Source: Rhodovulum bhavnagarense (GTDB lineage: Bacteria; Pseudomonadota; Alphaproteobacteria; Rhodobacterales; Rhodobacteraceae). From it: DNA of 64,000 nt. The translations under genes were made by a program, and so were the position numbers. Positions 2,055 to 16,386 of this stretch are shown piece by piece (positions within the stretch are counted from its first letter, which is position 1; every line of letters starts with the position of its first letter). The notes beneath the pieces were generated by a model, which searched no databases, had not been told where the DNA came from, and was given only the letters and a program-made list of their open reading frames with translations. The stretch spans positions 1 to 64,000 of the forward strand of contig NZ_SLXU01000002.1 in assembly GCF_004343505.1 (NCBI RefSeq), read 5' to 3'.

Positions 2055-3548
2055 TCAGTTTCCCAAGACCTTGATCAATCCATCCTCGCTGAGCCTGCCT
2101 GCCTCAATGGACGCCAGCGCCCTGACCGTTATGGCCTCCGTTGCCACGTACCCTGTGCGCGACACGCCCAGAGCGGCGAGCAGAGCTGCTTCACCAATCT
2201 TGCCAGCGTCGAACAGCTCAAAGGCCTTGGCTGCGGCTGTGGGAAGCTCCGACACAGGCACTGGGGCGACAATGACTGCTTCTGCTACTTCTGGCGGCTT
2301 TGCAGGTGCGTCGTCCGAGGTGTTCTGAACGAATGCGCGACCCGACAGCAGCTCAGCGTTCATGCGCGGCGACAGTTTCGAATAGAAGCGGCTGATGACT
2401 TCTGGGCTGTTGCCCATCTGGCTGCTGAGCAGGTCAGATGTCATTCCGCGAACCAAGCCCTGCGTGGCATAGAAGTGGCGGAAGCTGTACAGGGTGCGTT
2501 GCTTGCCATCTGGACCGCGTTCCATGTTGTTTTCTGTCAGGTAGCGGCGGAAATGGCGGACCAAGTTGTAGTAATCGACTTTTGTGCCGCTGCGCACCTT
2601 GAACACGTAGTCGTCGATCTTGGCGTCGATGACTTCTTCCAAGGTCATGTCGGCCAAGGCTGAGTTCATCTCACGCTGGCGATCCAGAAATCGAACCGTG
2701 CGGTCTCTGACAACGGCCTCGCGTACGCCAGTCTTGCCTGATGGGTAGACCGCCATGTAACGCTCCCCTTCTTTGGTGAACCAGCCGATGTTGCGCCATT
2801 TCAGGTTGAGCGCTTCAGTGCCATGACGCACGCCTGTGTTGGCCAAGAAAAGCACGTAGTTGCGCAACACTTCACGAGTTTCACGGGCAATGGGATGATA
2901 AGTCTTTTCGTGATAAGTGCGCAGGTCAGTGTAGATCTTCTTGTATTCCTCAGGCGAAAACGTTCCACGGCTCTTGGGTTTCACGCCTTTGTTGAGCAGG
3001 GTAGGGCGGATTGAGCTGGTGATCCAACCGCGCAGTTCTGCTTCGTCCAGGACCCTGTTCAGCGCGGAATTGTGCGTATTGATGGTGCTGTGTGAGGCTT
3101 TGCGCCCCATCTGCTCGGTGCGCCAAGTATCGAACTTTTGCAAAGCGGCCACATCGATGTTGACTACTTCCCATTTGCCAAAGAACGGGATCAGGTAGCG
3201 GTTAATGGCCGTGATGTAGTCGTTGAACACGACCTTGCCGCCGCCAGCTGCCATCTCGTTGCGCATGCGTTCGCAAGCATATTCGGCGACCTGCCTAAAC
3301 TTGCGGGTGTTCTGGGGCAGATTGTTTTTCAGGCGCTCGTCAGCGGCATAGTAGAACTTCAGCGCCACGTCTTTGGCTTCGTCCAGATCGCTGGTCTTGG
3401 TTGAGAAGCGATGCCATTCGCCAGACGCGAGCTTCACACGAGCCTGCCAGCGCGGACTGTCCTTGCGCTTGTCCAGTCGCACTCGTTCGTTGATGACGAT
3501 GGTTTCGACGTCTGCGCCCACTGCACCTGTGCCCCACGGTTGGTACAC
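2055..3548 (-). CDS. Tyrosine-type integrase of the left element
   Basis: A 497-residue site-specific recombinase. Residues about 80-175 form the core-binding domain (with an ALNRVLDEAELRGWI stretch typical of that fold) and 195-395 the catalytic domain. Visible catalytic positions: R241 (TGVRHGTE), K272 (PSGKTG), R357 (YSFRH) and nucleophile Y389 (RFYSK). The two usual histidines are replaced by Y354 and N380. Residues after about 405 form an Ala/Pro/Glu-rich linker and a C-terminal tail of about 90 residues outside the integrase fold. The only plausible start is GTG at 3548; the first ATG codons are far inside. It reads away from the tRNA-derived repeat at 3654, so it is probably the enzyme that inserted the left element there. 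Confidence 0.85.
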   Translation of the reverse strand: MYQPWGTGAVGADVETIVINERVRLDKRKDSPRWQARVKLASGEWHRFSTKTSDLDEAKDVALKFYYAADERLKNNLPQNTRKFRQVAEYACERMRNEMAAGGGKVVFNDYITAINRYLIPFFGKWEVVNIDVAALQKFDTWRTEQMGRKASHSTINTHNSALNRVLDEAELRGWITSSIRPTLLNKGVKPKSRGTFSPEEYKKIYTDLRTYHEKTYHPIARETREVLRNYVLFLANTGVRHGTEALNLKWRNIGWFTKEGERYMAVYPSGKTGVREAVVRDRTVRFLDRQREMNSALADMTLEEVIDAKIDDYVFKVRSGTKVDYYNLVRHFRRYLTENNMERGPDGKQRTLYSFRHFYATQGLVRGMTSDLLSSQMGNSPEVISRFYSKLSPRMNAELLSGRAFVQNTSDDAPAKPPEVAEAVIVAPVPVSELPTAAAKAFELFDAGKIGEAALLAALGVSRTGYVATEAITVRALASIEAGRLSEDGLIKVLGN

Positions 3549-3608: not shown

Positions 3609-3653
3609 CTGGTCTGCGGCGGGTGGTTTTTCTTTTGATTTCAGGGGTTTATT

Positions 3654-3700
3654 TGGAGGCGGGTACCGGAATCGAACCGGTCTTCACGGATTTGCAATCC
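3654..3700 (-). repeat. tRNA-Cys 3'-end copy, left attachment site
   Basis: This 47-bp block repeats bases 14058-14104 of the tRNA-Cys gene with three differences. It includes CCA, the 3' acceptor strand, T-arm, variable region and the 3' side of the anticodon arm, then stops: the 5' half of a tRNA is missing, so it is not a functional gene. One difference is in the acceptor strand (GGCGGG instead of GGCGAG on the plus strand) and two are in the variable region. It is the junction shared by the left element and the satellite-like element. Confidence 0.85.
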
Positions 3701-3740
3701 CGCTTCTTTCCACGCCAAAACAACTCCTTAGCCGCTAAAA

Positions 3741-3781
3741 GGTATCAGGACAAAGCGCAAACCAATAGCGAACCTGATACC
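3741..3781. promoter_or_regulatory. Inverted GGTATCAGG/CCTGATACC, possible integrase arm sites
   Basis: GGTATCAGG (3741-3749) and CCTGATACC (3773-3781) are perfect complements 23 bp apart. The TGATACC core also occurs twice at the other end of the element (14002-14008 and 14014-14020). Shared heptamers just inside both ends of an element are the pattern expected of arm-type integrase or excisionase sites. They also lie upstream of the initiator gene and could be operators. Confidence 0.45.
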
Positions 3782-3816
3782 CGGCCAATTCGTCCCTTGG
3801 GCAGTCTGGCGGCGCT

Positions 3817-4557
3817 ATGACGGGCCAGACACTTAACCGCTTCGAATGGCTGAAAGCTGTGAACAGATCAGACCTTTTGCCCCGCGCAAAGGTGGTCGCA
3901 TCGGCCTTGGCAATCGAATTCTGCAACGATGAAACCGGACGGCTTGACCCCGGAGTGAAGACGCTGGCGGACGCCACATGCCAGACCGTGGACACGGTGA
4001 AACGCGCCATCCGCGACCTGACAGACGGCGGGTGGCTGGCGCGTACCGAAGGGCGCGGGCGAGGCAACAAGACCGAGTACACCCTGCTGTCACCGGGCAA
4101 GGTTATCGCCATTTCCAGCACGAAAAAGGGGGCAGACATGCACCGGGCAAAAGGGGGCACCGATGCACCTTTAACAAAAGAAAAGGGGGCACCCGTGCAC
4201 GGAAAAGGGGGCACCGATGCACTTTCCTATAATAAGGATAAACAAACTCTGAACAAAGAAGGCGCGAACCCCGACCGCTTCCGCCATCATCAATTCACCG
4301 GCAACGCTTGGACAGGTCCAGCCGTGGTGCCTGCTACCGACCACGCCGCGCTTGGCGAGTGGGGGCGCTGGCTCAAGGCAGAAGGCTTCCCGGCACTGTC
4401 GGAATTCCCAATCAAGCGGCAAGGTTCGAAGAAGGGCAGCGAATTCTTCGCCCTGCCATGGCGGCGACCGCCGACCGACATGGAGCAGGCCGACGAAGCA
4501 CGGGCCTATTTCTCTGCCATGATAGAACCGGAAGGGCTTCGCTATGCTGCGCAGTGA
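3817..4557 (+). CDS. Winged-helix replication-initiator-like protein with origin iterons inside the gene
   Basis: A 246-residue protein, first gene of the element. Residues 1-92 form a winged helix-turn-helix (HTH near 49-74, wing near 75-92), as in phage replication initiators and replisome organisers. Residues about 101-140 are a low-complexity KGGTDA-type stretch encoded by four 20-bp DNA repeats (4124-4222). Residues 165-246 form a second small domain with several Trp residues. A DNA-binding N-terminus plus repeats in the middle of its own gene is the arrangement of lambda O, whose origin lies inside the O gene. The start at 3817 has only a weak ribosome site. There is no helicase or primase in the element, so replication would depend on host or helper enzymes. 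Confidence 0.65.
   Translation: MTGQTLNRFEWLKAVNRSDLLPRAKVVASALAIEFCNDETGRLDPGVKTLADATCQTVDTVKRAIRDLTDGGWLARTEGRGRGNKTEYTLLSPGKVIAISSTKKGADMHRAKGGTDAPLTKEKGAPVHGKGGTDALSYNKDKQTLNKEGANPDRFRHHQFTGNAWTGPAVVPATDHAALGEWGRWLKAEGFPALSEFPIKRQGSKKGSEFFALPWRRPPTDMEQADEARAYFSAMIEPEGLRYAAQ
4124..4222 (+). repeat. Four 20-bp iterons (candidate replication origin)
   Basis: Copies begin at 4124, 4149, 4181 and 4203; consensus AAAAGGGGGCACCGATGCAC. The second and fourth are identical, the first differs at 3 positions (AGACA for CCGA region) and the third at 2. Spacing is uneven (25, 32, 22 bp). All lie within the initiator-like gene and in the same orientation. The next 38 bases (4223-4260) are markedly AT-rich, as expected of a DNA-unwinding element next to iterons. 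Confidence 0.7.
4223..4260. other. AT-rich stretch beside the iterons (possible unwinding element)
   Basis: This is the most AT-rich part of the gene, with TTTCCTATAATAAGG and AAACAAACT-type runs, immediately downstream of the fourth iteron. By analogy with lambda-type origins it could be where strands open. The role is inferred from position and composition. Confidence 0.4.
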
Positions 4558-4860
4558 CGCCCGCCGAAAAGAACCCCCACAAAAAAAAGGCGGCTTTTTT
4601 CTGGGCATTTTTCCTGAAAAAACGTCTGCATCCCGTTCATTCGGACATCACCGCCGTGGCGCACGTGATCTTCACCGGGGCGCAGGCCATCGCAACAACG
4701 CGAACCTTCTGGCGAACCCTTTTCAAAGACCCTGCGCCGCAAGTCGTCGCGCTTTTGTGTGCCCTGTTCTGCTGGAAGGGTCCCTCCCAAGAAAACCTCT
4801 AGCGGGTGCGAAACAGCCCGAGGGTTCAGCCGCTGCAAAAATTGCTAAGGGGTGAAAATC
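4558..4860. other. Gap between initiator and terminase genes, no convincing gene
   Basis: About 300 bases with two overlapping plus-strand frames (one from 4544 to 4855, one from 4308 to 4802). Both are rich in Arg and Ala, have no recognisable domain, and look like chance frames in GC-rich DNA. An A8GGCGGCT6 tract occurs at about 4580-4600. A promoter for the packaging genes could lie here, and the end of the region carries the AAGGGG ribosome site of the next gene. Confidence 0.4.
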
Positions 4861-5352
4861 ATGAAGATTTTGTCGGAATTGTCGTTTGGCGAAGAGCCGC
4901 TGCACACCGTTGGTGGCAAGGACCTTTGCGCGCTTTTCGACATCTCACCCGCAGCCCTAACCGACCTGAAGAAACGCGGGATTGCGGTTCACCTGTCACA
5001 CGACACTTACGACCTGACCGCCACAACCCGCGCCTATGTCCAGCACCTTCGCGGCATGGCCGCAGGCTGGGGCACGGGGGATCAGGCGGCGAACCTCACC
5101 AGCGAACGGGCGCGGCTTGCCAAGGAACAGGCGGACGCGCAGGCCATCAAGAACGCGAAGCTGCGCGGCGAACTGGTGGAAGCTTCCGAAGTCGAACGCA
5201 CTTGGGCGGAAGCACTTCGCCAGCTTCGCGCCCGTATCATGGCCGTGCCGTCCCGCCTGCGGTCCGAACTTCCCGACATTGATCCGCAGGCCATAGACGC
5301 GATGGACCGGGCCTTGCGCGCCACGCTGACGGAGGTTGGCAATGGAAATTGA
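4861..5352 (+). CDS. Terminase small subunit (Nu1-like)
   Basis: A 163-residue protein with an N-terminal winged-helix-like segment (residues about 15-50, with DLCALFDISPAALTDLKKRG as in Nu1-type DNA recognition), followed by a long Ala/Arg/Glu-rich helical region (75-160) suited to oligomerisation. Small terminase subunits recognise the packaging site and regulate the large subunit. The start at 4861 has AAGGGG 8-12 bases upstream. It overlaps the large subunit gene by 11 bases. The position directly before a GpA-type gene supports the call; sequence alone gives only a moderate family match. Confidence 0.75.
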   Translation: MKILSELSFGEEPLHTVGGKDLCALFDISPAALTDLKKRGIAVHLSHDTYDLTATTRAYVQHLRGMAAGWGTGDQAANLTSERARLAKEQADAQAIKNAKLRGELVEASEVERTWAEALRQLRARIMAVPSRLRSELPDIDPQAIDAMDRALRATLTEVGNGN

Positions 5353-7120
5353 ACAGGTTCTTTCCAACGCCCTGCGCGCCCTAATCCCGCCGCCGCGTCT
5401 TCGGCTGTCCGAGTGGATCGAATCCGAAGTGGTTCTGCCCGAAGGCGTCAGTGCGCAGCCGGGGCCGGTCCAGCTTTGGCCCTTCCAGCGGGAAATCGCG
5501 GACGCCATCGGTGATCCGGCCATTGAACGGGTGACGCTGGTCAAGCCGGTACGGGTGGGCTTCACAACGCTTTTGACATCGGCGGTGGCGTCCTTTGTCG
5601 CCAACGAACCGGCGGCAATTCTCTGTGTCCTTCCCGCCGAAGCCGATTGCCGCCGCTACATGGTTTCGGACGTGGAACCGATTTTCGCCGCTTCGCCAAT
5701 GGTCGCAAAGGCACTGACCTATGACCGCGACCGGGACGAACGGAACACCCTTCTGGCGCGGCGCTTTCCGGGCGGTTCGCTGACGCTGGTCGCGGCGAAA
5801 GCACCCCGCAACCTGCGAAGCCACAACGTCCGGGTTCTGTTCATGGACGAAGTGGACGCCATGGACCCCACGTCCGAAGGTTCACCGATCCAGCTTGCCG
5901 AAAAGCGAACGCTGTCCTTCCCTGACCGCAAGATTGTCATGGGCAGCACCCCGGTTCACGAGGAAACCAGCAACGTGTTGCGCGCCTTCGCGGATTCGGA
6001 CGCCCGGATTTATGAAGTGCCTTGCCCGGAATGCGGGGCATTTGCCGAAATCCTGTGGGATGCCATCCGATGGGATGAAGGCAAGCCGGAAACCGCCCGC
6101 TGGCAGTGCCCCCATTGCGCCGCCGAGATAGCGGAACGCCACAAGCCGAAGATGGTGGCACAGGGGCAATGGCGCGCGACCCGGCCCGAGGTGCAGGGCC
6201 ATGCGGGATTCCAGTTGAACGCCCTGGTATCGCTTCACGCCAACGCATCTTGGCCGCAGCTGGTCCGCGAATTCCTTTCTGCGAAGAAAGACCCGACCAC
6301 GTTGCAGACCTTCGTCAACACCATCCTTGGGCAAGGCTGGACCGGCGCGGGGGATGAACTGGACGATAGCGAACTGGCGGGCCGCAATGAACCCTTCGGG
6401 CTGGACGACTTGCCCGAAGACGTTCTGACCATCGCCGCCGGGATCGACACCCAACATGACCGGCTTGAATGCACCCTTATCGGCTACGCCAAGGACGAAA
6501 CCGCCTTCATCCTCGGGCATAGGGTCATCTGGGGACAATGGGACCACCACGAGACGTGGGCCGAACTGGATGACCTGTTAAAGACTAAGTGGAAGCATCC
6601 GCTTGGCGGTTCTCTGGGCGTGGAAGCCGCCGCAATCGACGCGGGCGACGGTGCGACCATGGAAGCCGTCAAAGCCTTCTGTGCCCCTCGCCAGCGCCGC
6701 CGCATCATGGCTATCAAGGGGGTTTCAGGAACCCGGCCCTTCATCGAGCCGTCACGGGGGCGCAATACGAGGGGCGCACGCCTTTGGCTGGTCGGGGTGG
6801 ACGGGATCAAAACCGCCATCATGGCGCGGCTGTCGCGGGCTGGGTCTATCCGATTTTCCGGTGATCTGCCGCCGGTCTGGTATGAACAGCTTGCCAGTGA
6901 AAGGGCAGTAACGCGGTATGTGCGGGGCCAGCCGCAGCGCCGGTTTGAGCGGGTGCCGGGACGGCGGGCCGAGGCGCTGGATTGTGTGGTCTATGCCATC
7001 GCCGCGCGGCAAGTGGTTCACGTCAACTTCGAAGAACGGGAATCGCAGTTGCGCGCCGGGGGCATTCAGGACCGGCCCAAGCCGAAGAATGTCTATCGGT
7101 CGAAATTCCTTTCGGGATAG
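5342..7120 (+). CDS. Terminase large subunit (lambda GpA family)
   Basis: A 592-residue DNA-packaging motor. It shows the deviant Walker A of GpA proteins (KPVRVGFT, residues 68-75), Walker B with catalytic Glu (VLFMDEVD, D169/E170), a four-cysteine zinc ribbon (C228, C231, C256, C259) and the RNase-H-like nuclease start (GIDTQHDRLE, D369) with later Asp residues (DAGDG, ALDC). It translocates DNA into the prohead and cuts it. The start at 5342 follows GGAGG with a six-base spacer; a TTG at 5336 abuts that site and is unlikely. Length is within the GpA range. It converges on a minus-strand small membrane protein gene with a 28-bp overlap. Having its own large terminase separates this element from satellites that only redirect helper packaging. 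Confidence 0.95.
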   Translation: MEIEQVLSNALRALIPPPRLRLSEWIESEVVLPEGVSAQPGPVQLWPFQREIADAIGDPAIERVTLVKPVRVGFTTLLTSAVASFVANEPAAILCVLPAEADCRRYMVSDVEPIFAASPMVAKALTYDRDRDERNTLLARRFPGGSLTLVAAKAPRNLRSHNVRVLFMDEVDAMDPTSEGSPIQLAEKRTLSFPDRKIVMGSTPVHEETSNVLRAFADSDARIYEVPCPECGAFAEILWDAIRWDEGKPETARWQCPHCAAEIAERHKPKMVAQGQWRATRPEVQGHAGFQLNALVSLHANASWPQLVREFLSAKKDPTTLQTFVNTILGQGWTGAGDELDDSELAGRNEPFGLDDLPEDVLTIAAGIDTQHDRLECTLIGYAKDETAFILGHRVIWGQWDHHETWAELDDLLKTKWKHPLGGSLGVEAAAIDAGDGATMEAVKAFCAPRQRRRIMAIKGVSGTRPFIEPSRGRNTRGARLWLVGVDGIKTAIMARLSRAGSIRFSGDLPPVWYEQLASERAVTRYVRGQPQRRFERVPGRRAEALDCVVYAIAARQVVHVNFEERESQLRAGGIQDRPKPKNVYRSKFLSG

Positions 7121-7278
7121 TCATCCCGGCGCAAAGGCTGCTGGAAGGCGTTTAAGGTAGGGTCGCGCTTCTGGCGGCTGGTGCCGGTGCCGATCATCAT
7201 CTCCACCACGCCCCAAAGAATGGCGAAGCCGAAGAATGCACCGGCGGCGCATGTTATCCAGAACAGGGCTTCAATCAT
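7093..7278 (-). CDS. Small single-pass membrane protein in the repressor operon
   Basis: A 61-residue protein with one strong hydrophobic segment (residues 2-28, about ALFWITCAAGAFFGFAILW) and a charged C-terminal tail. It starts at 7278, overlapping the end of the XRE regulator gene by eight bases on the same strand, so the two are probably one operon expressed when the element is quiescent. Small membrane proteins made with a repressor often act in superinfection exclusion, but no family is recognised and that role is inference. Confidence 0.55.
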   Translation of the reverse strand: MIEALFWITCAAGAFFGFAILWGVVEMMIGTGTSRQKRDPTLNAFQQPLRRDDYPERNFDR

Positions 7279-7543
7279 TGGGGCTATTGGGCCGTGAAAG
7301 GCGTACGCCAGCGCCGCCGCCGTTCTCTTCGATGAAGACCACACCGGCGGCTTCAAGTGCAGACCGCATCGCACTCTTGTTCGCTTGGGTCGCGCTGACG
7401 AAGCCTGTCTCTGCTTCGCAACGCCTGACCGTTGCCACCCCGACACCTGCCCTGTCCGCCAAATCTTGCGCGGACCATCGAACCAATGCCCGTCCGGCCC
7501 TTAGCTGTTCTGCGGTGATATTTATTTTATCAGGTGATAGCAT
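7271..7543 (-). CDS. XRE-family helix-turn-helix repressor
   Basis: A 90-residue protein with an XRE HTH at residues about 10-48 (LRAGRALVRWSAQDLADRAG followed by VATVRRCE). The remaining 40 residues form a short dimerisation tail; there is no peptidase domain, so it is not a LexA-like self-cleaving repressor. It is transcribed opposite to the exported-protein gene at 7613, with palindromes containing TGATA half-sites at 7528-7539 and 7565-7581, which fits a C1-like role for an element switch. The start codon at 7543 lies beside the first palindrome, implying autoregulation. How the repressor would be inactivated is unclear; a helper-phage antirepressor is one possibility. Confidence 0.75.
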   Translation of the reverse strand: MLSPDKINITAEQLRAGRALVRWSAQDLADRAGVGVATVRRCEAETGFVSATQANKSAMRSALEAAGVVFIEENGGGAGVRLSRPNSPND

Positions 7544-7581
7544 ATTGATCTAACCTAGGTGGCATGATAGGAAAGCTATCA
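7528..7581. promoter_or_regulatory. Twin operators for the XRE repressor
   Basis: TATCAGGTGATA (7528-7539) and TGATAGGAAAGCTATCA (7565-7581) are perfect inverted repeats sharing the half-site TGATA. The first covers the start of the repressor gene; the second lies between the divergent genes. An extra half-site is at 7516-7520. This is the expected layout for repressor autoregulation and control of the rightward promoter. Confidence 0.55.
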
Positions 7582-7612
7582 CATGACTTGAAATTAGACA
7601 ACGGAGTTTCCC

Positions 7613-8017
7613 ATGACTATCACCCGCCGCGCCACCTTGGCCGCTCTGACCGCAAGCCCGTTAACTATTGCTTCGGTTGCTACGCAAGCCGCACCCGGCG
7701 GCGAAGGGCAGACCACGCTTGAAAAAACCTATGTGGAATGGCTGTCCGCGCTGAACGATATTGAAGAAACGCTGATCCTACATCCGGCGGATAAGCTGAC
7801 AAAAGTCGATGAAAACCGGATACTTGGGCCACTCTATGACCGCGCTGACACGCTTCAAGAGGCGATGATCGCCGCGCCTGTCACCGGCCCCCGCGACCTT
7901 GCGGTCAAGGTTCTGGTGGTTCTCGCCACGCCGGGGGCGCTGGACGATGACGCAGTTGACCGGATCAAGGCCGATGCCATGCGGCTGGTCAATCTCACCG
8001 ACGCCAAAACCACGTAG
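7613..8017 (+). CDS. Exported protein of unknown function (Tat-like signal)
   Basis: A 134-residue protein with an N-terminal TRRATLAALTASPLTIAS segment resembling a twin-arginine signal peptide, with a probable cleavage site after ATQAA near residue 27. The mature part (about 107 residues) is helical and acidic with no domain I recognise. A GGAG ribosome site precedes ATG 7613. It is the first gene rightward of the repressor operators, so it may be controlled by the repressor. An exported host-altering protein among packaging genes is typical of a moron (cargo gene). Confidence 0.55.
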   Translation: MTITRRATLAALTASPLTIASVATQAAPGGEGQTTLEKTYVEWLSALNDIEETLILHPADKLTKVDENRILGPLYDRADTLQEAMIAAPVTGPRDLAVKVLVVLATPGALDDDAVDRIKADAMRLVNLTDAKTT

Positions 8018-8060
8018 TTGACATAAGAGGTGGAAACCTTTTATACGAAATAAAAGGTTT
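8018..8060 (+). promoter_or_regulatory. Promoter with a 27-bp inverted repeat over the -10 element
   Basis: TTGACA at 8018-8023 and TTATAC at 8041-8046 are separated by 17 bases, a good sigma-70-type promoter. AAACCTTTTAT (8034-8044) and ATAAAAGGTTT (8050-8060) are perfect 11-bp complements around a 5-nt spacer and cover the -10 region, so a bound protein would block or remodel the promoter. The next gene (8072) encodes a MerR-like regulator that could bind here. Confidence 0.55.
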
Positions 8061-8071
8061 AGGGGGACGCG

Positions 8072-8557
8072 ATGCGCTTGTCTGCAATCTGTAAAGAACT
8101 GGACCTGCCCAAAGGGCGGGTAGAACAGTGGGGGCACCGGGGCCTTCTGGTGTTTGACAATGAGACCAAACCCGGAGCCGCGCGGGAATGCACCAAAGCG
8201 GACGCGGCGCGCATTGCGATGCTCGGATATCTTTCCAATTCAGGTGTTTCTGTCGAAGCCGCCTCGAAGCAAATTGCGCAAGCGATGAAGCACCTGTTCT
8301 TGTTCACGGGTGAGAAGTCTTTTCTGGTCATTTCTTCGTCGCGGGCTGGTGAAATCATCCCGCCCACCCCGAGGGGCGGGCCGGGCACCAAGAAGGGCGA
8401 AGGCATTCAAATCGTGACTGATCCGCATTTCATTGCGAATGCGGTTCGGGAACGTGACTTGGCTTCGCACCTTGGAAACCCTGAATTCGACTATTCACTG
8501 ATTTTCGACCTTACGGAAATTGAAGCCCGTATTGACGAATTCTGGTTGGAATCGTGA
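8072..8557 (+). CDS. MerR-type DNA-binding protein
   Basis: A 161-residue protein. Residues 1-70 look like a MerR winged helix (LSAICKELDLPKGRVEQWGHRGLLV) followed by a helix with ADAARIAMLGYLSNSG. Residues 75-161 have no known effector domain; the last 35 residues are acidic. AGGGGGA at 8061-8067 precedes ATG 8072. It sits behind a promoter covered by a long inverted repeat and ahead of the portal gene, so it could control the late (capsid) genes or its own promoter. It is not a canonical metal or drug sensor, since no cysteine cluster is present. Confidence 0.6.
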   Translation: MRLSAICKELDLPKGRVEQWGHRGLLVFDNETKPGAARECTKADAARIAMLGYLSNSGVSVEAASKQIAQAMKHLFLFTGEKSFLVISSSRAGEIIPPTPRGGPGTKKGEGIQIVTDPHFIANAVRERDLASHLGNPEFDYSLIFDLTEIEARIDEFWLES

Positions 8558-8594
8558 TCCGATGGTCGGCTTGGGTGCCATGACCATCGGTAAG

Positions 8595-8626
8595 GCGGGG
8601 GCGTGGTCCACCAAGCGCGCCCCCGC
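8595..8626 (+). terminator. GC-rich hairpin between the MerR-type and portal genes
   Basis: GCGGGGGCG (8595-8603) pairs perfectly with CGCCCCCGC (8618-8626) around a 14-nt loop, followed by a moderately T-rich stretch (TATATTTTCTT). It may be a partial terminator separating regulatory and late genes or an RNA structure in the portal leader. The U-tract is imperfect. Confidence 0.4.
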
Positions 8627-8662
8627 TGCCTATATTTTCTTGGAACATAAAGGAATCCGGTG

Positions 8663-10105
8663 ATGCGCAGTCTTAAAGGTGTCTCCTTGTCGCGCATCAT
8701 CGGAACCGCCGCCCGTGCCTTCCACTTCCCTGCCGCGTCCCACATGGCGCAGGGTGGCACGGGCGGCAATCATCGCCGCAGCCTAGACGCCGCAACCGGC
8801 GGGCGGCGCGGCGGTGGATTGGGCACCTTCGGCCCGATCAATTCCGAAGTATCTGCGGGCCTGTCGCTTGTCGGCAGTCGGGCGGCATACCAAGCCGTCA
8901 ACAATCCTTACATCGCCAACGCGGTTGCAAACCTTGTCACCGCCCTTGTGGGCACCGGGCAGCGCCCGAATGTGCGTGGTGTCGAACGGGAACTGCGCCG
9001 CCAGCTACACTATGCGTTTGATCGCTTTTGCGAGACCGCAGACCACGCGGGGCGAACCGACTTTGGTGGGCTTTTGGCCCAGATCGCCCGCGACATGGTG
9101 GTGTATGGCGAAGGTCTGGCCGTGATGCACAACACGGCGGACGGGCTGCAAATCCAAGTCATCCCGCCGGATCATCTGGACCCGGCAAAGACCGAAATCC
9201 TGCGCGATGGTCGCCAGATTGTACAAGGGGTGGAATTCGACGCCAGCGGGCGGCGGGTGGCCTACTGGATATTCCCCGAACGGCCCCATTCTGTCTTCGC
9301 TGACCATTCCCCCGCCGTCCGGGTGGAGGCGGCGCATGTTCTGCACGTCTTTCATCCGATCGCGCCGGGGCAGGTGCGCGGCCTGTCTTGGGTCGCACCG
9401 GCGGTTGTGACGGCGAACGAGTTGAACCAGTGGAAAGACGCCACGCTTGTCGGTGCGAAAATGTCCGCAATGCAGGCGGGCTTCATTACTGACACGTCAG
9501 ACATTGGCGGCGACGAAGAACTATTCGCGGAACCAACTTGGGAGCCGGGTGGCCTTGTCCGTTTGCCCTTGGGAACTGACGTGAAATTCAGCGCCCCGGA
9601 CCAGATCAAAGACGCACCCGCCTTGCTGCGCATGACGTTGCAGGAACTTGCCGCTGCGCTTGGGGTGCCGGAATTCCTGCTTTCGGGTGACCTGACCAAC
9701 GCGAACTATTCCAGCCTCCGGGCGGGATTGATTCCCTTCCGGGCGCGCATCGACCAAGTGCAGCACAACACCCTTGTTCCCCAAGTCTTGCGCCCTGTCT
9801 GGCGGCGCTGGCTGGCGCTGGAAATCCTTGCGGGCCGCATCGACGCCCCCGCCGACACCCCGTGCGACTGGATCATGCCGCGCCCGCAACAGGTGGACCC
9901 GGCTAAGGACTTGGAAGCGACCGAAAAGGCGCTGGCCCTTGGTTTGACCAGCCGCACCAACGCCATCAATGAACTGGGGTGGAACGCGGACGATATTGAC
10001 GAAGAAATCCAAGCGGATCGCGCCCGCGAAGCCGAATTGGGCCTGACCTTCGCCACCCCGACAACGCAACCCACGAATCCGAAGGAGGGCACCGATGCCG
10101 CTTGA
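8663..10105 (+). CDS. Phage portal protein (lambda GpB family)
   Basis: A 480-residue portal. Homology is evident in the core (YQAVNNPYIANAVANLV near residue 75, then RDMVVYGEGLAV, RGLSWVAPAV, and GVPEFLLSGDLTNANYSSLR near 340-360, a hallmark of lambda-type portals). Portals form the dodecameric ring through which DNA enters the prohead. ATG 8663 has AGGA eight bases upstream; GTG 8660 is an alternative. The gene overlaps the protease-capsid gene by 11 bases, which carries its own AAGGAGG site inside the portal C-terminus. Confidence 0.93.
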   Translation: MRSLKGVSLSRIIGTAARAFHFPAASHMAQGGTGGNHRRSLDAATGGRRGGGLGTFGPINSEVSAGLSLVGSRAAYQAVNNPYIANAVANLVTALVGTGQRPNVRGVERELRRQLHYAFDRFCETADHAGRTDFGGLLAQIARDMVVYGEGLAVMHNTADGLQIQVIPPDHLDPAKTEILRDGRQIVQGVEFDASGRRVAYWIFPERPHSVFADHSPAVRVEAAHVLHVFHPIAPGQVRGLSWVAPAVVTANELNQWKDATLVGAKMSAMQAGFITDTSDIGGDEELFAEPTWEPGGLVRLPLGTDVKFSAPDQIKDAPALLRMTLQELAAALGVPEFLLSGDLTNANYSSLRAGLIPFRARIDQVQHNTLVPQVLRPVWRRWLALEILAGRIDAPADTPCDWIMPRPQQVDPAKDLEATEKALALGLTSRTNAINELGWNADDIDEEIQADRAREAELGLTFATPTTQPTNPKEGTDAA

Positions 10106-11843
10106 CGCCACCATGGCCCCGGCCAGCTTCGACCCCGAAGCCCGCACCGTGGAGGCGGTTATTGCCACCACCGCACCCTTAATGAAGCGCGATGCGCGGG
10201 GCACCTTTGCCGAGGTGTTGGACTTCACAACGCTGGACCTGACCAATGCCGCGAGCCTTCGCGTTTTGGACAGTCACCGCACCGCCAGCATCCGCGACAC
10301 CATGGGCACCGTGGAAGCGGTGCGGGTGGAAGGCGACAAGCTGATTGCCAAGCTGAAATTGAGCGCCGCCGATGACGTGACCCCGGTCCTGCAAAGGATT
10401 GCGGACGGCACTATTAGCGGCGTGTCCATCGGATACCGCGTCAAGCGCTGGACCGAAAACCAAAGCGGGGGAACCCGCACCCGACGCCCCGCAGAATGGG
10501 CACTGACGGAAGTCACCCTGACTTCGAACCCCGCCGATCCGGCGGCAACCCTGCGACACAAAAAGGAGGCCGGTATGGCTGATGATGTGATTGAAACCAC
10601 CCCGGCGGATGACGCCGAAAAGACCCGCCGCACCGAAATTCGGTCGCTGGTCCGGTCTGCTGGCCTTGAGCCGCAGATTGCCGATGACCTGATTGACGCC
10701 GGTGCGGACCTGACCCGCGCCAAGGCCGAAATCTTCGATGCGCAGCAAAACCGCCAGCGTAGCGCGCCGATCATCCGCAGCCATGCCCCGGCCAATGATG
10801 ACCCGGCGGTCATCACGCGCCGCCAGACGGACGCGGTGGCCTACCGCATGGCCGGTGGCGAACTGCCCGACGATGCGCGGCAATATGTGAACATGAGCCT
10901 GCGCGACATGGCGGTTGAAAGCCTCGCCCGCGAAGGTGTTTCGACACGCGGTATGTCCGCCGATGAAGTGTTCACGCGGGCGGCGCACACGTCCAGCGAC
11001 TTCCCGCTGGTGGTGTCGAACGCCGCGAACAAGGTGGCGCTGGATACCTACAAGGCAGCGGAAAGCCCCCTGAAGACGCTCTGCCGCCAGCGGACGCTTC
11101 CGAACTTCAAGGAAAGCAACGCCATCCGCTTGGGCGACATGGGGCGGCTGGAACCGCTGTCCGAAGACGGGGAAATCAAGGCCACCAGCCGCGCAGAAAA
11201 CGGCGAGTCCATGCGCCTGAAAACCTTCGCCCGTGGCCTGACCGTCACCCGCGAACTGCTTATCAACGATGACCTTGGGATGTTGGGCGACATGACCGCC
11301 GCCCTTGGCGAAGCCGCCGCGCAGACCGAGGCGGATGAACTGGTGAAGCTGCTGACCGGCAACCCGGCAATGTCGGACGGAACCCCTGTCTTCGACGCCA
11401 GCCGGGGCAATGTCGGCACCGCCGGTGCCCCTTCGGTGACCGCCCTGACCGAGACCCGCAAAACGATGCGGACCCGCAAGGGGATGGACGGGAAAACCAT
11501 CATCGCGGTGGCACCGCGATACCTTCTGGTATCGGCGGCGCTGGAAACCGAAGCCGAAAAGGTTCTGGCGTCCATCCAGCCGAACAAGGCCGATGACGTG
11601 AACCCCTTCGGCGGCAAGCTGTCGCTTCTGGTGGAACCCCGCCTGCCGGATGACTTCTGGTACGTCTTCGCGGACCCGGCCCGACTGGCGGCGATGCAAT
11701 ATGCCTACCTGTCCGCCGCGCAGGGCGTCCAGATCCAGCGGACGGAGGCGTGGGACACGCTTGGGATGAAATTCCGGGCATTCCTCGACTTCGGTGCGGG
11801 GTGGCTGGACTGGCGTCCCGCCCAACAAATTCCGGCCGCGTGA
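10095..11843 (+). CDS. Prohead protease fused to major capsid protein
   Basis: A 582-residue fusion. Residues 1-155 are a U35/S78-type prohead protease with likely triad H61 (LDSHRT), S111 (GVSIGY) and E139 (LTEVTL). Residues about 165-265 are a charged helical delta/scaffold-like region. Residues about 290-580 are an HK97-fold/Mu gpT-like major capsid protein. The protease would cut the fusion during maturation. An in-frame ATG at 10575 (residue 161) has a perfect AAGGAGG five bases upstream, so a separate 422-residue scaffold-capsid protein is probably made in excess over the fusion. Start at 10095 follows AAGGAGG at 10083-10089. Confidence 0.92.
   Translation: MPLDATMAPASFDPEARTVEAVIATTAPLMKRDARGTFAEVLDFTTLDLTNAASLRVLDSHRTASIRDTMGTVEAVRVEGDKLIAKLKLSAADDVTPVLQRIADGTISGVSIGYRVKRWTENQSGGTRTRRPAEWALTEVTLTSNPADPAATLRHKKEAGMADDVIETTPADDAEKTRRTEIRSLVRSAGLEPQIADDLIDAGADLTRAKAEIFDAQQNRQRSAPIIRSHAPANDDPAVITRRQTDAVAYRMAGGELPDDARQYVNMSLRDMAVESLAREGVSTRGMSADEVFTRAAHTSSDFPLVVSNAANKVALDTYKAAESPLKTLCRQRTLPNFKESNAIRLGDMGRLEPLSEDGEIKATSRAENGESMRLKTFARGLTVTRELLINDDLGMLGDMTAALGEAAAQTEADELVKLLTGNPAMSDGTPVFDASRGNVGTAGAPSVTALTETRKTMRTRKGMDGKTIIAVAPRYLLVSAALETEAEKVLASIQPNKADDVNPFGGKLSLLVEPRLPDDFWYVFADPARLAAMQYAYLSAAQGVQIQRTEAWDTLGMKFRAFLDFGAGWLDWRPAQQIPAA
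10563..10577 (+). promoter_or_regulatory. Internal ribosome site and start codon for capsid-only product
   Basis: AAGGAGG at 10563-10569, a full match to the 16S rRNA anti-Shine-Dalgarno, lies five bases before ATG 10575, in frame in the protease-capsid gene. It falls exactly at the end of the protease domain. This recalls nested starts such as lambda C/Nu3, but here it would supply capsid subunits. Confidence 0.7.
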
Positions 11844-12058
11844 TGACGCTGGAAGAACTCACCGCGTGCCGGGATAGACTCCGGCGCGCGCGCTTCAAGG
11901 GGATCATGACCGTCATGATCGACGGCGAAACCGTCACCTACAAATCGGACATGCAAATGGCTTCGGCGCTTGCAGCGATTGAGGCGGAAATCTCGAAACT
12001 CACACGCGGGCCGCGCCCGCGCACCATCTATCCGCAGACCACGAAAGGACTGACCTGA
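11843..12058 (+). CDS. Head-tail joining protein-like (gpW type)
   Basis: A 71-residue protein that starts one base into the capsid stop codon (TGATG). It has two amphipathic helices around a short beta hairpin (FKGIMTVMIDGETVTYKSD) and ends RTIYPQTTKGL. The order helix-hairpin-helix, the length and the place right after the capsid gene match the gpW-type head completion proteins of lambda-like phages, which seal the portal and receive the tail. In a tail-less element this would be the docking point for a helper tail. Confidence 0.65.
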   Translation: MTLEELTACRDRLRRARFKGIMTVMIDGETVTYKSDMQMASALAAIEAEISKLTRGPRPRTIYPQTTKGLT

Positions 12059-12387
12059 TGCGCAATTTTGTCCAAACCGGTGACACGCTCACCTTCACCA
12101 GCCCCGACCCGGTTGCCTCCGGGCAGGGCGTTGTCATGAATGCTCTGTTCGGGGTGGCCGCAAGCGCCGCGCCCGCCGGTGACCCCTTTGAAGCCGCTGT
12201 GGTGGGGGTGTTCGAACTGCCGAAAACCGCAGGTGCCATCGCCGCAGGGGCGAAGGTCTACTGGAAGGCTGACACCGCCAATGTGACCACGACCGCAACC
12301 GGCAACAAGCTGATTGGCGCGGCGACCGAAGCCGCAGATGATGCCGCGACCACGGTTCGCGTCCGCCTGAATGGAACGGCTGCGTAA
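12058..12387 (+). CDS. DUF2190 family capsid decoration-like protein
   Basis: A 109-residue beta-rich protein with the DUF2190 pattern: an N-terminal NFVQTGDTLTFTSP, a central GVFELPKTAGAIAAGAKVYW and a C-terminal small-residue strand ending VRVRLN. DUF2190 proteins of siphophages are head decoration or cement proteins with a lambda gpD-like role. The gene overlaps the upstream stop codon by one base and is the last structural gene of the element. Confidence 0.8.
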   Translation: MRNFVQTGDTLTFTSPDPVASGQGVVMNALFGVAASAAPAGDPFEAAVVGVFELPKTAGAIAAGAKVYWKADTANVTTTATGNKLIGAATEAADDAATTVRVRLNGTAA

Positions 12388-12400
12388 GGCGGATGTGACG

Positions 12401-12778
12401 ATGCAGGCTATTCGCAGCGAAGACATGGAATACCCGATTCCGGTGGACACCCGTCCAGCGGTCAATCGGGCCATGGTCTGGCGCTGCGAATGGTGGCTTT
12501 CTTCGGAATTCAGGCTGCTGGCTGACAAGGATGTTCGCGCAATTGCCTTCGATTTGTTCTGTATCGCGCAGCATCAAAACCCGCTTGGCACATTGCCAAC
12601 GGATGAAAGAATTCTGGCCCGTCTGGTCGGTGAGCCAATGGAAGAATGGCACCGACTTATGGGGAAGCCGATCAATCCATTGAGTGGGTGGCGGCGCTGT
12701 ATTTTGAGCAACGGGGATCGCAGATTGTATCACCCGGTAAGCCTTGAAATCGCCCGCGCAGCCCTTCGGAAGAAATGA
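12401..12778 (+). CDS. Unknown protein, possibly related to phage DUF1376-type replication proteins
   Basis: A 125-residue protein (start at 12401 behind AAGGCGG; ATG 12371 is possible but has no ribosome site). The stretch LADKDVRAIAFDLFCIAQHQ followed by PLGTLPTDERILARL resembles the replisome-organiser-like DUF1376 pattern (small W-rich N-terminus, then a helix counting layers and a GTLP...LAR motif). The similarity is from memory and weak. It is coupled to the excisionase-like gene by an ATGA overlap, so it belongs to the integration/early module and not to the capsid module. Confidence 0.45.
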   Translation: MQAIRSEDMEYPIPVDTRPAVNRAMVWRCEWWLSSEFRLLADKDVRAIAFDLFCIAQHQNPLGTLPTDERILARLVGEPMEEWHRLMGKPINPLSGWRRCILSNGDRRLYHPVSLEIARAALRKK

Positions 12779-12984
12779 CGGCGGTTACCCCCATACTGGC
12801 CAATGAGCGCACCGCCGCGCGGCTTCTTGACGTGGGCGTGACAGAGTTTCGGGCGCTGGTCGACGCAGGACACCTGCCGAAAGGCCGGGAAATTGCTCCG
12901 GGCCTTGTGCGCTGGCCTGTCGATGATTTGCGCCGCATTGCGAAGGGTGACGCGGTGGAGGGTATGGGGGATGTGCAATGGTGA
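12775..12984 (+). CDS. Excisionase-like helix-turn-helix protein
   Basis: A 69-residue protein with a MerR/AlpA-like winged helix (ARLLDVGVTEFRALVDAG then HLPKG) and a final basic segment, the size and fold of Xis/AlpA excisionases. It overlaps the upstream gene by four bases and the integrase start by seven, so it is co-translated with the integrase. Its likely binding sites are the TGATACC repeats at the element ends, which is inferred. Confidence 0.65.
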   Translation: MTAVTPILANERTAARLLDVGVTEFRALVDAGHLPKGREIAPGLVRWPVDDLRRIAKGDAVEGMGDVQW

Positions 12985-13976
12985 AGAAGAAGTACCTTTG
13001 GCGTCATCCCGCCGGGCGGATTTATGTCCGCCTGAAAGGCCGCTTGTATCGCATCCACGCGCAGGAGGGCACGGAAGACTTTGACCGGGAATATTGGGAA
13101 ATCCTGACCGGCAAACGGATGCAGGCCAAAACGTCTTGGAATGCGCTGATTGAGGACTACCGGACTTCTGACCGGTGGCTGGGCCTGAAACCCCGAACGC
13201 GCCAAGACTATGACAAGGTCATGCTATACCTGCGCGAAAAGATTGGCCCCCGCGATGTGAAATCGCTCACCCGCTCGGATGTGATCGCGGCACAGAAAGC
13301 AAATTCCCATCGAACGCGGTTCGCAAACTACATCCCGCAGATGTTGGTGATTCTGTGTGAACACGCCATTGATTTGGGATGGATTGCCAACAACCCGGCA
13401 AAGGGTGTTCGGGCACTGAAGACCCCGCAGCACCGCAAGAAAGAGCATTTGCCGTGGCCCGATTGGGCAGTGGACAAATTCCGCGCAGAAGCAAGTGATC
13501 TGCCACGCCTGATTTTCGAGATTGGTGTGGGAAGCGTCCAGCGCCCCGGTGATTGGGTAGGGTTTCGGTGGGGCGACTATGACGGCGATTCCCTGACCCT
13601 TCGGCAGAACAAGACGGACAAGCCGCTGGTGCTTCCATGCACGGCAGAACTGAAATCCGCACTGGACACCGCCAAGGCGGCTTTGGGCGTCATCCCCATT
13701 GCCGGGAAGCCGATCCTGAGCAAGCTGGACGGCAACCCGATGGGCTATCGGTACATGTCGCAAGTCATGTTGAGGGAACGCCGTCGCCTTGGGCTGGAAG
13801 CCTATGATCTTCACGCGCTTCGGTATCGGGGAGTGCAGGAATTGGCGTGGCAGGGCTGCACAGACGATGAAATCGCCGCCTATAGCGGACACGCCACAAA
13901 AGCGATGATTGAGAAGTATGCGGGCGAAGCAAGACAGGTCATGCGCGCCCGCCAAGCGCGGGAGAAGCGCAAGTGA
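12978..13976 (+). CDS. int: Tyrosine integrase of the satellite-like element
   Basis: A 332-residue integrase. The N-terminal 60 residues are basic (arm-type DNA binding), about 65-135 are the core-binding domain, and 150-325 the catalytic domain with R in SVQRPGDW, K in NKTDKP, HALR (H and R), H in YSGHATK and the nucleophile Tyr in IEKYAGEA. It ends about 80 bp from the tRNA-Cys gene and reads toward it, the standard position for an enzyme that integrates at that site. Start at 12978 (ATG GTG AAG). Confidence 0.92.
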   Translation: MVKKKYLWRHPAGRIYVRLKGRLYRIHAQEGTEDFDREYWEILTGKRMQAKTSWNALIEDYRTSDRWLGLKPRTRQDYDKVMLYLREKIGPRDVKSLTRSDVIAAQKANSHRTRFANYIPQMLVILCEHAIDLGWIANNPAKGVRALKTPQHRKKEHLPWPDWAVDKFRAEASDLPRLIFEIGVGSVQRPGDWVGFRWGDYDGDSLTLRQNKTDKPLVLPCTAELKSALDTAKAALGVIPIAGKPILSKLDGNPMGYRYMSQVMLRERRRLGLEAYDLHALRYRGVQELAWQGCTDDEIAAYSGHATKAMIEKYAGEARQVMRARQAREKRK

Positions 13977-14001
13977 ACAGAACAAGAGCAGAACGCGAAC
14001 G

Positions 14002-14020
14002 TGATACCCTGTTTGATACC
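14002..14020 (+). promoter_or_regulatory. Two TGATACC repeats near the right end
   Basis: TGATACCC occurs at 14002-14009 and again at 14014-14021, 12 bp apart, between the integrase stop and the attachment repeat. The same octamer is at 3775-3782 near the left end. This is the pattern of integrase arm-type or excisionase sites. Confidence 0.45.
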
Positions 14021-14057
14021 CCAAGCGGGGCAGGTGACGCTAAGTGTCTGAAAGTAT

Positions 14058-14104
14058 TGGAGGCGAGTACCGGAATCGAACCGGTGTACACGGATTTGCA
14101 ATCC
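14058..14104 (-). repeat. Right attachment site, 3' part of tRNA-Cys
   Basis: The block matches 3654-3700 at 44 of 47 positions and forms the 3' part of the intact tRNA-Cys gene. The longest identical runs, ACCGGAATCGAACCGGT and CACGGATTTGCAATCC, cover the T-arm and the anticodon arm; the crossover is most likely in one of them. After integration the tRNA gene remains whole. Confidence 0.85.
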
Positions 14105-14131
14105 GCTGCGTAACCACTCCGCCAACTCGCC
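14058..14131 (-). tRNA. tRNA-Cys (GCA)
   Basis: A complete 74-nt cloverleaf on the minus strand. The 5' acceptor strand GGCGAGT pairs with ACTCGCC, the anticodon loop is TTGCAAA with anticodon GCA, the T-arm is CCGG-TTCGATT-CCGG, and CCA is encoded. Its 3' half is the insertion site of the accessory elements to the left. Confidence 0.95.
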
Positions 14132-15003: not shown

Positions 15004-16386
15004 ATGAGCAGGTTCGTAAAAAGGCTTTCCGGCGCCGCCGCCGTGGCGGTGATGCTGGCCGGTGGCACGATGGCACGCGCGGAAACGCTGACCGATGCGT
15101 TGATCGCGGCATACAAGAATTCTTATTTGCTGGAGCAGAACCGGGCGCTTTTGCGTGCTGCAGATGAGGATGTCGCGCAGTCGGTGGCCGCGCTGCGTCC
15201 GATCATCCAGTTCGCGATCAATGCCAGCCAGACAGATGCGAACGCCCCGATTTCCTCGGCGGGCACCACCCATTCCAGCAGCGCTTCGGCCGACCTGACG
15301 GCCAGCCTGACCCTTTACGACGGGGGCAACAACCGCTTGGCCGTCGATGCCGCGAAAGAGGCCGTCATGGCCACCCGCGCAGCGCTGATCGGGGTCGAGC
15401 AGAATGTTCTGCTCTCGGCGGTGCAGGCTTACATGGATGTCTTTGCCGCGCTGCAGAACGTGTCGTTGGCTGAGAACAACGTGCGTCTGATCACCGAACA
15501 GTTGCGCGCTGCACAGGATCGTTTCGAGGTGGGCGAGGTGACGCGTACCGATGTGTCGCTCGCGGAATCGCGCTTGGCTGCGTCGCGATCCAACCTGGTT
15601 GCCGCGCAGGGCGATCTTGCTGTGGCCCGCGAGGCATACAAGGTCGCCATCGGGCACTATCCCAAGGCAATCAGCGGCATTCCTGGTCTGCCCGCTCTGC
15701 CCGAAAGCGTGGACGAGGCAAAAAGCGTCGCGGTCCAGACCCACCCCAACATTATCCAGGCCCAGCATAACGTGACCGCGGCAGAGTTGAACGTCGCCCG
15801 CGCCAGGTCCGCGCGGGGCCCCACGCTATCGGCCAGTGCGGGCCTGTCGGCACAGGATAACGGTGTGAAGTCCAGTTCGGTTGGCCTGTCGCTGAACCAG
15901 ACGCTGTATCGCGGTGGGGGGCTTTATGCCGCCGAGCGCCAGGCGCGCGCGAATTCGGAAAGCGCCCGGGCGGGCCTGTTGCAGACCGTGCGGCTGATCG
16001 AAGAGCAGGTCGGCAATTCATGGTCAAGCCTTGCCGTCGCCCGCGCCCAGATCAACGCCATCAACCGTCAGATCCGTGCAGCGCAATTGGCCTATGAAGG
16101 CACCCGCGAAGAGGCGCGGCTTGGTGCGCGCACGACGCTTGACGTGCTGGATGCCGAACAGGAACTGCTTGATGCCCGCACTAGCCGGGTGACCGCAGAG
16201 GCCAACCAGTATGTCGCGATTTACGCGGTTCTGTCCTCGATGGGCCTTTTAACGGTCGAGCATCTGGGGCTGGGCATTCCGACTTATGATCCGCTGGTCT
16301 ATTACAATGCCGTTCGCAACGCGCCCGCGAAAAGTGTGCAGGGGCGCAAGCTTGACAAGGTTCTGGAAAGCATTGGTCAGCAATAA
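15004..16386 (+). CDS. tolC: TolC family outer membrane efflux protein
   Basis: A 460-residue outer-membrane channel of type I secretion and RND efflux systems. Signal peptide at residues 1-26 (cut after ARA), then two TolC repeats beginning TLTDALIAAYKNSYLLEQNRA and near residue 235-245, each with long helical hairpins. It has the VTRTDVSLAESRL and RTTLDVLDAEQELLDAR motifs characteristic of the TolC subfamily. No inner-membrane partner is encoded nearby, so it is probably shared among several exporters, as TolC usually is. Confidence 0.93.
   Translation: MSRFVKRLSGAAAVAVMLAGGTMARAETLTDALIAAYKNSYLLEQNRALLRAADEDVAQSVAALRPIIQFAINASQTDANAPISSAGTTHSSSASADLTASLTLYDGGNNRLAVDAAKEAVMATRAALIGVEQNVLLSAVQAYMDVFAALQNVSLAENNVRLITEQLRAAQDRFEVGEVTRTDVSLAESRLAASRSNLVAAQGDLAVAREAYKVAIGHYPKAISGIPGLPALPESVDEAKSVAVQTHPNIIQAQHNVTAAELNVARARSARGPTLSASAGLSAQDNGVKSSSVGLSLNQTLYRGGGLYAAERQARANSESARAGLLQTVRLIEEQVGNSWSSLAVARAQINAINRQIRAAQLAYEGTREEARLGARTTLDVLDAEQELLDARTSRVTAEANQYVAIYAVLSSMGLLTVEHLGLGIPTYDPLVYYNAVRNAPAKSVQGRKLDKVLESIGQQ

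Follow-up and report, generated by a model that had tools for sequence, protein, structure and literature searches.

What could an integrated element do that encodes a phage head and the enzymes to fill it, and among whose proteins neither a tail nor a lysis family is matched? The question is raised by a stretch of 64,000 nucleotides from Rhodovulum bhavnagarense (contig NZ_SLXU01000002.1, positions 1 to 64,000), called here the window, which is the start of contig C2 in a host genome of 3.15 Mb in 51 contigs. At a tRNA-Cys gene of this window (3653-14104) lies an integrated element of ~10.4 kb, with 13 main genes between 48-nt repeats. From its sequence and that of its relatives, we consider it quite probable that this element is a functional capsid-forming phage satellite, which would package itself and borrow the tails and lysis functions of a helper. 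As judged from gene content and conservation, it is an integrated element maintained by selection, which encodes its own head, portal, adaptor and terminase as well as an initiator with repeats, an integrase and regulators; that it packages itself, borrows tails and depends on a helper is what we infer.

A head module without recognised tail genes

The direct repeats bounding the element are 94% identical over 48 nt, the second copy lying inside the 3' part of an intact tRNA-Cys. The original prediction of a ~10.4 kb segment between such repeats thus held, with its start corrected from 3654 to 3653. The genes that it had listed (Nu1/GpA terminase, portal, protease-capsid, gpW-like and DUF2190 proteins, integrase, initiator with iterons) are borne out by family matches; the excisionase-like protein and the XRE repressor also have matches, but these are weak, XRE and HTH_17 (helix-turn-helix, HTH) falling below cut-off. 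The terminase and head genes are co-directional, their frames are open and most of their ends overlap. This gene set is not a chance array, since relatives keep most of the genes as well as the iterons. The element is also present as an IMG/VR contig (L140, 13,077 bases) with a 100% identical capsid.

As had been predicted, the proteins of the element matched no tail, baseplate, holin or endolysin family in Pfam, PHROGs and further family-profile scans. Three small open reading frames (ORFs) of 82, 134 and 135 aa match no family, one of them having a twin-arginine-like N terminus, and the helper is only a candidate. On this basis, one could imagine a virus that is autonomous and makes do without the tail of a helper, using either an unrecognised entry route or a minimal tail of unrecognised small proteins. 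We find this very unlikely, as no lysis gene is recognised, 10.4 kb leave little room for a tape measure, the portal is of lambda type with a gpW-like adaptor, and no tail or lysis family occurs among 131 non-core proteins of 22 related elements. The 134-aa protein itself (7613-8017) is perhaps exported, as predicted from its N terminus; proteins of this kind with such an N terminus occur in two divergent groups, and the L142 copy as called is without the twin-arginine-like motif.

Repeats or tRNA positions allowed the ends of the 22 elements to be placed, which is why these were chosen. They measure 9.9-13.1 kb, with L042 at 15.8 kb, and their targets include tRNA-Cys, Trp, Ser, Tyr, Met, Phe, Thr, Arg, Glu and Gly; many of the repeats are only 14-19 nt long, which makes individual boundaries uncertain. 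Pfam (E up to 0.001) matched 20 families in the 131 proteins, none of them a tail or lysis family, and no tail family is among the 25 listed of 91 matched PHROGs families. Since the PHROGs families were listed in part, we base the lack of tail genes on Pfam, where all 20 of the matched families were shown, and on our own profiles. The non-core families are mainly DUF5906, D5_N, Prim-Pol and VapE-like replication proteins together with HTH regulators. The window element has instead a short O-like initiator with iterons, an arrangement kept in L060, L061 and L141, where 3-5 iterons stand at a like place. PADLOC (E up to 1e-5) gave, among 25 listed of 66 families in these 131 proteins, methylase/restriction or methylase-named defence parts with one member each.

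Tailless relatives, selection and transfer

The same gene order without tails, which the original prediction had proposed to look for in other Rhodobacterales, was found many times, in some cases at the same tRNA-Cys. A second tailless element adjoins a tRNA-Ser in the same genome (C9), with 69% identity in the capsid, 62% in the portal and 57% in the large terminase TerL. Among the six loci nearest in TerL besides that of the window, L037, L038, L039 and L042 hold TerL, portal, capsid, cement protein and integrase, without any convincing tail match; an adaptor is also labelled in L038. L041 has TerL, portal, adaptor and cement, a capsid piece of only 112 aa and no integrase match, and L040 has an integrase and TerL, its sequence ending soon after. 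Tail matches were present in every one of 14 further loci (L043-L056), whose TerL is 31-34% identical.

A scan by capsid alignment covered the best 80 of 218 relatives in species genomes and the best 80 of 511 in viral contigs (IMG/VR). With our own profiles, tail or lysis genes were detected in none of the resulting 161 loci, window included, and in 102 of them the capsid is followed by an integrase within 4 kb; some elements turn up in both sets, and a large share of the contigs is short. Capsid identity to the window reaches 93-98% among the tailless relatives, as against less than 60% for all capsid matches in phage records (see below), which supports the satellite interpretation first put forward. 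Hosts are mostly Rhodobacterales; Sphingomonadaceae, Erythrobacteraceae, Methylobacteriaceae, Methylopilaceae, Aurantimonadaceae and Magnetospirillaceae also occur among the rows of our capsid tree.

As a less biased test, the capsid profile was run against 295 genomes, each representing a different genus of the family. It gave 38 places above 600 bits in 32 genomes, the next score being 453 bits and below. We compared the 36 high-scoring places outside the own genome with 20 hand-picked places at 300-400 bits: no tail or lysis family was seen in 34 of the 36 satellite-type loci, several of these 34 being short (the shortest 4,081 bases), vs tail families in 18 of the 20 tailed-type loci (Fisher p 1.5e-10). 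We propose that these elements would form a large satellite group in Rhodobacterales and other alphaproteobacteria, with a head module different from that of capsid-forming phage-inducible chromosomal islands (cf-PICIs), as far as the capsids used in PMC13230959 represent them.

In the two tailed-type exceptions, L269 (9277-12375) and L277 (3817-6222), the capsid gene stands without a recognised terminase or portal. Two small plasmids are alike in having a protease-capsid relative and no annotated portal or terminase, namely Rhodovastum plasmid RHOAph (L224, 10,690 bp) and Synechococcus plasmid pANS (L225, 7,842 bp). Such cases would fit satellites whose head genes mainly interfere with a helper capsid, or resize it, rather than build a particle of their own. 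For the Rhodovulum element this seems to us quite improbable, considering that terminase, portal, protease-capsid, adaptor and cement are all under constraint and that it has its own cos-like site. In L269 and L277 a 54-aa ORF follows the capsid gene, and L269 also has an integrase.

The ratio of nonsynonymous to synonymous divergence (dN/dS) between the window and five relatives is 0.14-0.21 over the aligned genes (0.14 vs L060). It is 0.02-0.13 for TerL, 0.06-0.22 for the portal and 0.10-0.15 for the capsid, the values vs L060 being 0.02, 0.06 and 0.10, respectively; the terL of L141 holds an internal stop. Purifying selection acts on the genes for packaging and for the head. At the same tRNA-Cys in Thioclava sp. 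SK-1 (L061), the small terminase TerS, TerL, portal, capsid, adaptor and cement are 86-97% identical to those of the window. For this pair dS is 0.43 in the element vs 2.1 and 2.6, near saturation, in genes beside the tRNA-Cys (62% and 53% identity). Because the dS of the element is far below that of the flanking host genes, tailless forms, at least in their packaging and head block, seem to move between genera.

These data bear on the possibility of a defective prophage, deleted down to its head module and devoid of present function. The head genes are indeed such as tailed phages have, the same genus contains tailed prophages whose capsids are distantly related, and one relative, L244, looks degraded, with a truncated portal and fragments of tail-tube and chaperone genes nearby. 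Against such a prophage stand the purifying selection on packaging and head genes, the same tailless make-up across many genera and many tRNAs, the signs of tailless transfer between genera and the lack of any close tailed relative among phage records. A lone decayed prophage was thus rejected on selection, recurrence and transfer signs, and we see little probability in the explanation as a whole. Relaxed selection, broken frames and close intact tailed relatives, which would mark a defective prophage, were not what we observed; the argument already made against random decay is strengthened by the open frames, the overlapping ORFs, the purifying selection and the retention of most genes in relatives. 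The finding named beforehand as fatal to the satellite interpretation, a closely related prophage of full length that combines these head genes with a tail, did not appear in 50,697 phage records, in which the terminase (754 records) and capsid (110 records) matches are all below 60% identity. Among the best 40 matches listed for each, identity goes up to ~38% for the terminase and ~36% for the capsid.

The capsid tree has 44 rows, of which 33 are tailless (80 thinned at 82% identity), 10 tailed and one from a plasmid. The window and 27 more tailless rows (28 of the 33) form one starred clade with no tailed row inside, and a second tailless group (support 88) comprises L037, L042 and their kin. 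The annotations of RcMamaDuck, yong2 and Vibrio phage 1.083 place TerL first, then adaptor, portal, capsid, a small gene and finally neck or tail genes, with extra ORFs ahead of the capsid in Vibrio phage 1.083; PBb002 follows this order, except that a hypothetical protein stands where the others have the adaptor, and LPPA33 is all hypothetical in the stretch examined. In the satellite order the adaptor comes after the capsid, followed by the cement protein, a few small genes and the integrase.

Features of the Rhodovulum element and its integration site, in window coordinates
Feature	Position	Strand	Evidence
attL, 48-nt partial copy of tRNA-Cys 3' end	3653-3700		direct repeat, 94% identical to 14057-14104
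Rep, lambda O-like replication initiator, 246 aa	3817-4557	+	phrog_270 E 2e-9; phrog_391 O-like E 7e-8
Four iterons (AAAAGGGGGCA core) inside rep, presumed origin	4124-4225	+	repeat search of window
Conserved non-coding cos-like block upstream of TerS (GGGTCCCTCC ... GCGGGT)	4778-4858	+	alignment, window and five relatives
TerS, Nu1-like small terminase	4861-5352	+	phrog_57 E 1.8e-31; PF07471 E 5e-7, just under cut-off
TerL, lambda GpA-like large terminase (ATPase and nuclease)	5336-7120	+	PF05876 E 5e-87; PF20454 E 7e-88
XRE-like repressor candidate	7271-7543	-	PF13560 E 9e-4, below cut-off
134-aa protein, twin-arginine-like N terminus	7613-8017	+	alignment; no family match
MerR-like HTH regulator in hypervariable slot before portal	8072-8557	+	PF13411 E 6e-5, over cut-off; slot alignment
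Portal, lambda family	8660-10105	+	PF05136 E 5e-78; TIGR01539 over cut-off
Prohead protease/major capsid fusion	10095-11843	+	NF045541 648 bits vs cut-off 525; PF25209 E 2e-46
gpW-like head-tail adaptor Ad1	11843-12058	+	phrog_2545 E 4e-14; NF047331 69 bits vs cut-off 33
Head decoration/cement protein (DUF2190)	12058-12387	+	PF09956 E 2e-30; phrog_122
135-aa protein	12371-12778	+	present in close relatives; no family match
Excisionase-like HTH (Xis), weak match	12775-12984	+	phrog_66 E 4e-4; HTH_17 E 8e-4, below cut-off
Tyrosine integrase (Int)	12978-13976	+	phrog_1 E 2e-22; PF00589 over cut-off
attR, within 3' part of tRNA-Cys	14057-14104		direct repeat
tRNA-Cys(GCA), intact integration target	14058-14131	-	ARAGORN

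A common family for the protein of the pre-portal slot was considered and rejected, 19 others aligning at only 10-23% identity to that of the window. To the left of the element, window positions 900-1466 are integrase-like by our own profile, and a 488-aa gene (2055-3521) resembles a tyrosine recombinase by eye. L061 and L062 also hold a Xis-Int pair left of the element, which suggests stacked islands at the tRNA-Cys.

Packaging, candidate helpers and opposing observations

If the element is a satellite as we propose, infection by a helper or induction would lead to its excision by Int and Xis, and replication would proceed from the iterons in rep. Concatemers would then be cut at the cos-like site before TerS by the element's own Nu1/GpA-like terminase, the DNA would fill heads built from its protease-capsid fusion, and the gpW-like adaptor would close them; the tail, the tail-joining protein and lysis would be supplied by the helper. 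About 80 nt before TerS are conserved in the window and five relatives, and the DNA further upstream is not. If the ends of the RcMamaDuck record are assumed to be true cohesive ends, joining them gives GGTTCTTCC, a spacer, ATG and CGGGG, and the same layout is observed in a second subfamily of tailless elements.

Concerning the helper, the genome itself contains pieces of tailed prophages on C20, C21 and C31, with RcMamaDuck-like tail genes, and these RcMamaDuck-like prophages of the strain are candidate helpers. On C21 the terminase of such a prophage is split over two frames (L006, 5453-7356), and C21 and C31 may represent one prophage broken by a contig end. For one cf-PICI, the known helpers are not native to its strain, according to passages of PMC11389934.

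Several observations weigh against a functional satellite, or against the support drawn for it above. The loose cos-like motif found before TerS in 47 of 59 elements vs 30 of 2290 control windows (p 3e-66) was partly drawn from the sequences then counted, so that the p value overstates the difference. The pattern misses 12 of the 59 elements, L060 included, the window has a variant of it only (0 matches to the exact GGGTCCTTCC), and of 38 tailed loci just 2 contain its strict form. A search of the window element, which has the gpW-like Ad1, with a profile matching 33 proteins of tailed loci revealed no gpFII-like joiner; a hidden joiner there was rejected, the only clear match among satellite loci being in L257. 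The latter and L244 are the 2 of 36 satellite-type loci with tail-side genes. L257 is otherwise a complete satellite, with a homologue of the siphophage head-tail joiner at 15844-16170, between TerS and TerL; it is suggestive that its sole tail-side gene would be a joint to a tail. In addition, our capsid searches were seeded with tailless sequences, and the branch uniting all tailless rows of the tree has a weak support of only 72.

Constraint is weaker on Rep (dN/dS 0.18-0.50, the highest vs L060) and on the 135-aa gene (0.15-0.57, the highest vs L141). As for transfer, the integrase of L061 is only 50% identical to that of the window and its Xis 62%, from which we take it that the integration module of this relative was probably exchanged; for the L062 pair, no recent transfer is indicated, since the dS of the element is no lower than that of the host. 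Finally, a helper is unsupported by co-occurrence: a full-length siphophage tail tube (>400 bits) is found in 15 of the 32 satellite genomes vs 9 of 32 others (p 0.20), the tool itself tallying 17 and 9 and the comparison genomes not being randomly drawn.

Place among known satellites

In a broad sense, the Rhodovulum element is what a capsid-forming satellite is expected to be, that is, small, integrated and mobile, encoding its own replication and head functions without a tail. The closest parallel can be drawn with cf-PICIs, which, as described in passages of PMC13230959, PMC10803314, PMC11389934 and PMC10690885, have PF05065 capsids of three radiations and an HNH protein. Both are small (average 14 kb for cf-PICIs, PMC10803314) and encode their own capsid, protease, portal, terminases and integrase. 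In the Rhodovulum element, these include TerS, TerL and an integrase with an AlpA-like/Xis regulator (phrog_1, phrog_66; HTH_17 only below cut-off), and recognisable tail or lysis genes are absent, with L244 and L257 as the two exceptions among relatives; of head-tail connectors, which cf-PICIs also encode, it has the gpW-like Ad1. It differs from cf-PICIs in its PF25209 fusion capsid, its Nu1/GpA lambda-type terminase, its lambda portal and its alphaproteobacterial host; the host families named for cf-PICIs in passages of PMC10803314 include no alphaproteobacteria. Capsid matches in Pfam at E up to 10 are PF25209, PF10124 and PF04586 only, without PF05065, and no HNH match was found in the window element (Pfam, PHROGs) or among the 131 non-core proteins (Pfam). 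The original prediction that cf-PICIs have exactly this content was thus only partly right, as capsid family and terminase type differ and no HNH gene was found in the element. Because of these three differences, we call the element cf-PICI-like: its genes predict that it works like a cf-PICI, without assigning it to them. Clustering with published cf-PICI capsids would be unlikely, given the different Pfam family.

Other systems share part of this organization. The Streptomyces satellites MulchRoom and MiniFlayer encode their own capsid, portal and terminase, MulchRoom probably using helper tails; unlike the Rhodovulum element, with its own replication genes and tRNA integration, they have virulent helpers and no primase was found in them, according to passages of PMC10690885. 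The cf-PISP satellite-plasmids of Vibrio are also head-only, with helper tails proposed, but are described in passages of PMC13230959 as episomal, with a PF05065 capsid and found in Vibrio only. P4, PICI, PLE and PICMI are likewise small and integrated with their own replication, DUF5906 primases being present in several relatives of the Rhodovulum element; they depend on a helper capsid, whereas the latter encodes its own head (passages of PMC10803314 and PMC6092414). On the phage side, RcMamaDuck and related siphoprophages have a terminase, lambda-type portal, protease-capsid fusion, cement protein and gpW-like adaptor as well, the RcMamaDuck capsid being 29% identical to that of the window, but they are ~42 kb long, with full tail and lysis modules and the adaptor before the portal instead of after the capsid.

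The second subfamily (L042, L099-L139) has ~40% capsid identity and tends to hold large genes between TerL and portal. We scanned 54 of 62 slot proteins, omitting three that look replication-like from their size and place, two in L115 that are copies of L042 genes, and three of L136; 47 of the 54 come from this subfamily, and the tallies do not name members. Pfam matched N6_Mtase in 9 of the 54, Eco57I in 8, N6_N4_Mtase in 5 and DNA_methylase in 4, with single or few matches to EcoRII, BsuBI/PstI, MmeI, type I and type III (25 of 48 families listed); PADLOC also gave restriction and methylase families among the 25 listed of 327. A NotI-like enzyme and a cytosine methylase are encoded in L042 (9075-11245), and in the element of this subfamily on a Paracoccus plasmid, methylases and an HNH gene occupy this interval.

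Self-capsid satellites that take helper tails are called widely distributed in passages of PMC10690885. At the level of titles and abstract openings, we found no description of the present group in the literature. A bolder and unlikely hypothesis would be that the alphaproteobacteria have a capsid-forming satellite lineage of separate origin, whose head module is lambda/Mu-like and which occurs in roughly one in ten sampled genera of the family; its members would dock on tails of siphophages with a gene-transfer-agent-like tail protein and possibly on gene-transfer-agent tails of the host. If docking on host gene-transfer-agent tails, an open speculation, were true, no phage helper would be needed. 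More generally, a large alphaproteobacterial group with a different head module would suggest that the self-capsid strategy arose again. Satellites have been reported to carry anti-phage genes habitually (abstract opening of PMC9122126), and since the sister subfamily carries restriction-modification genes, these satellites would add a transfer route for defence genes. Cultured hosts are available in which the docking of tails is directly testable.

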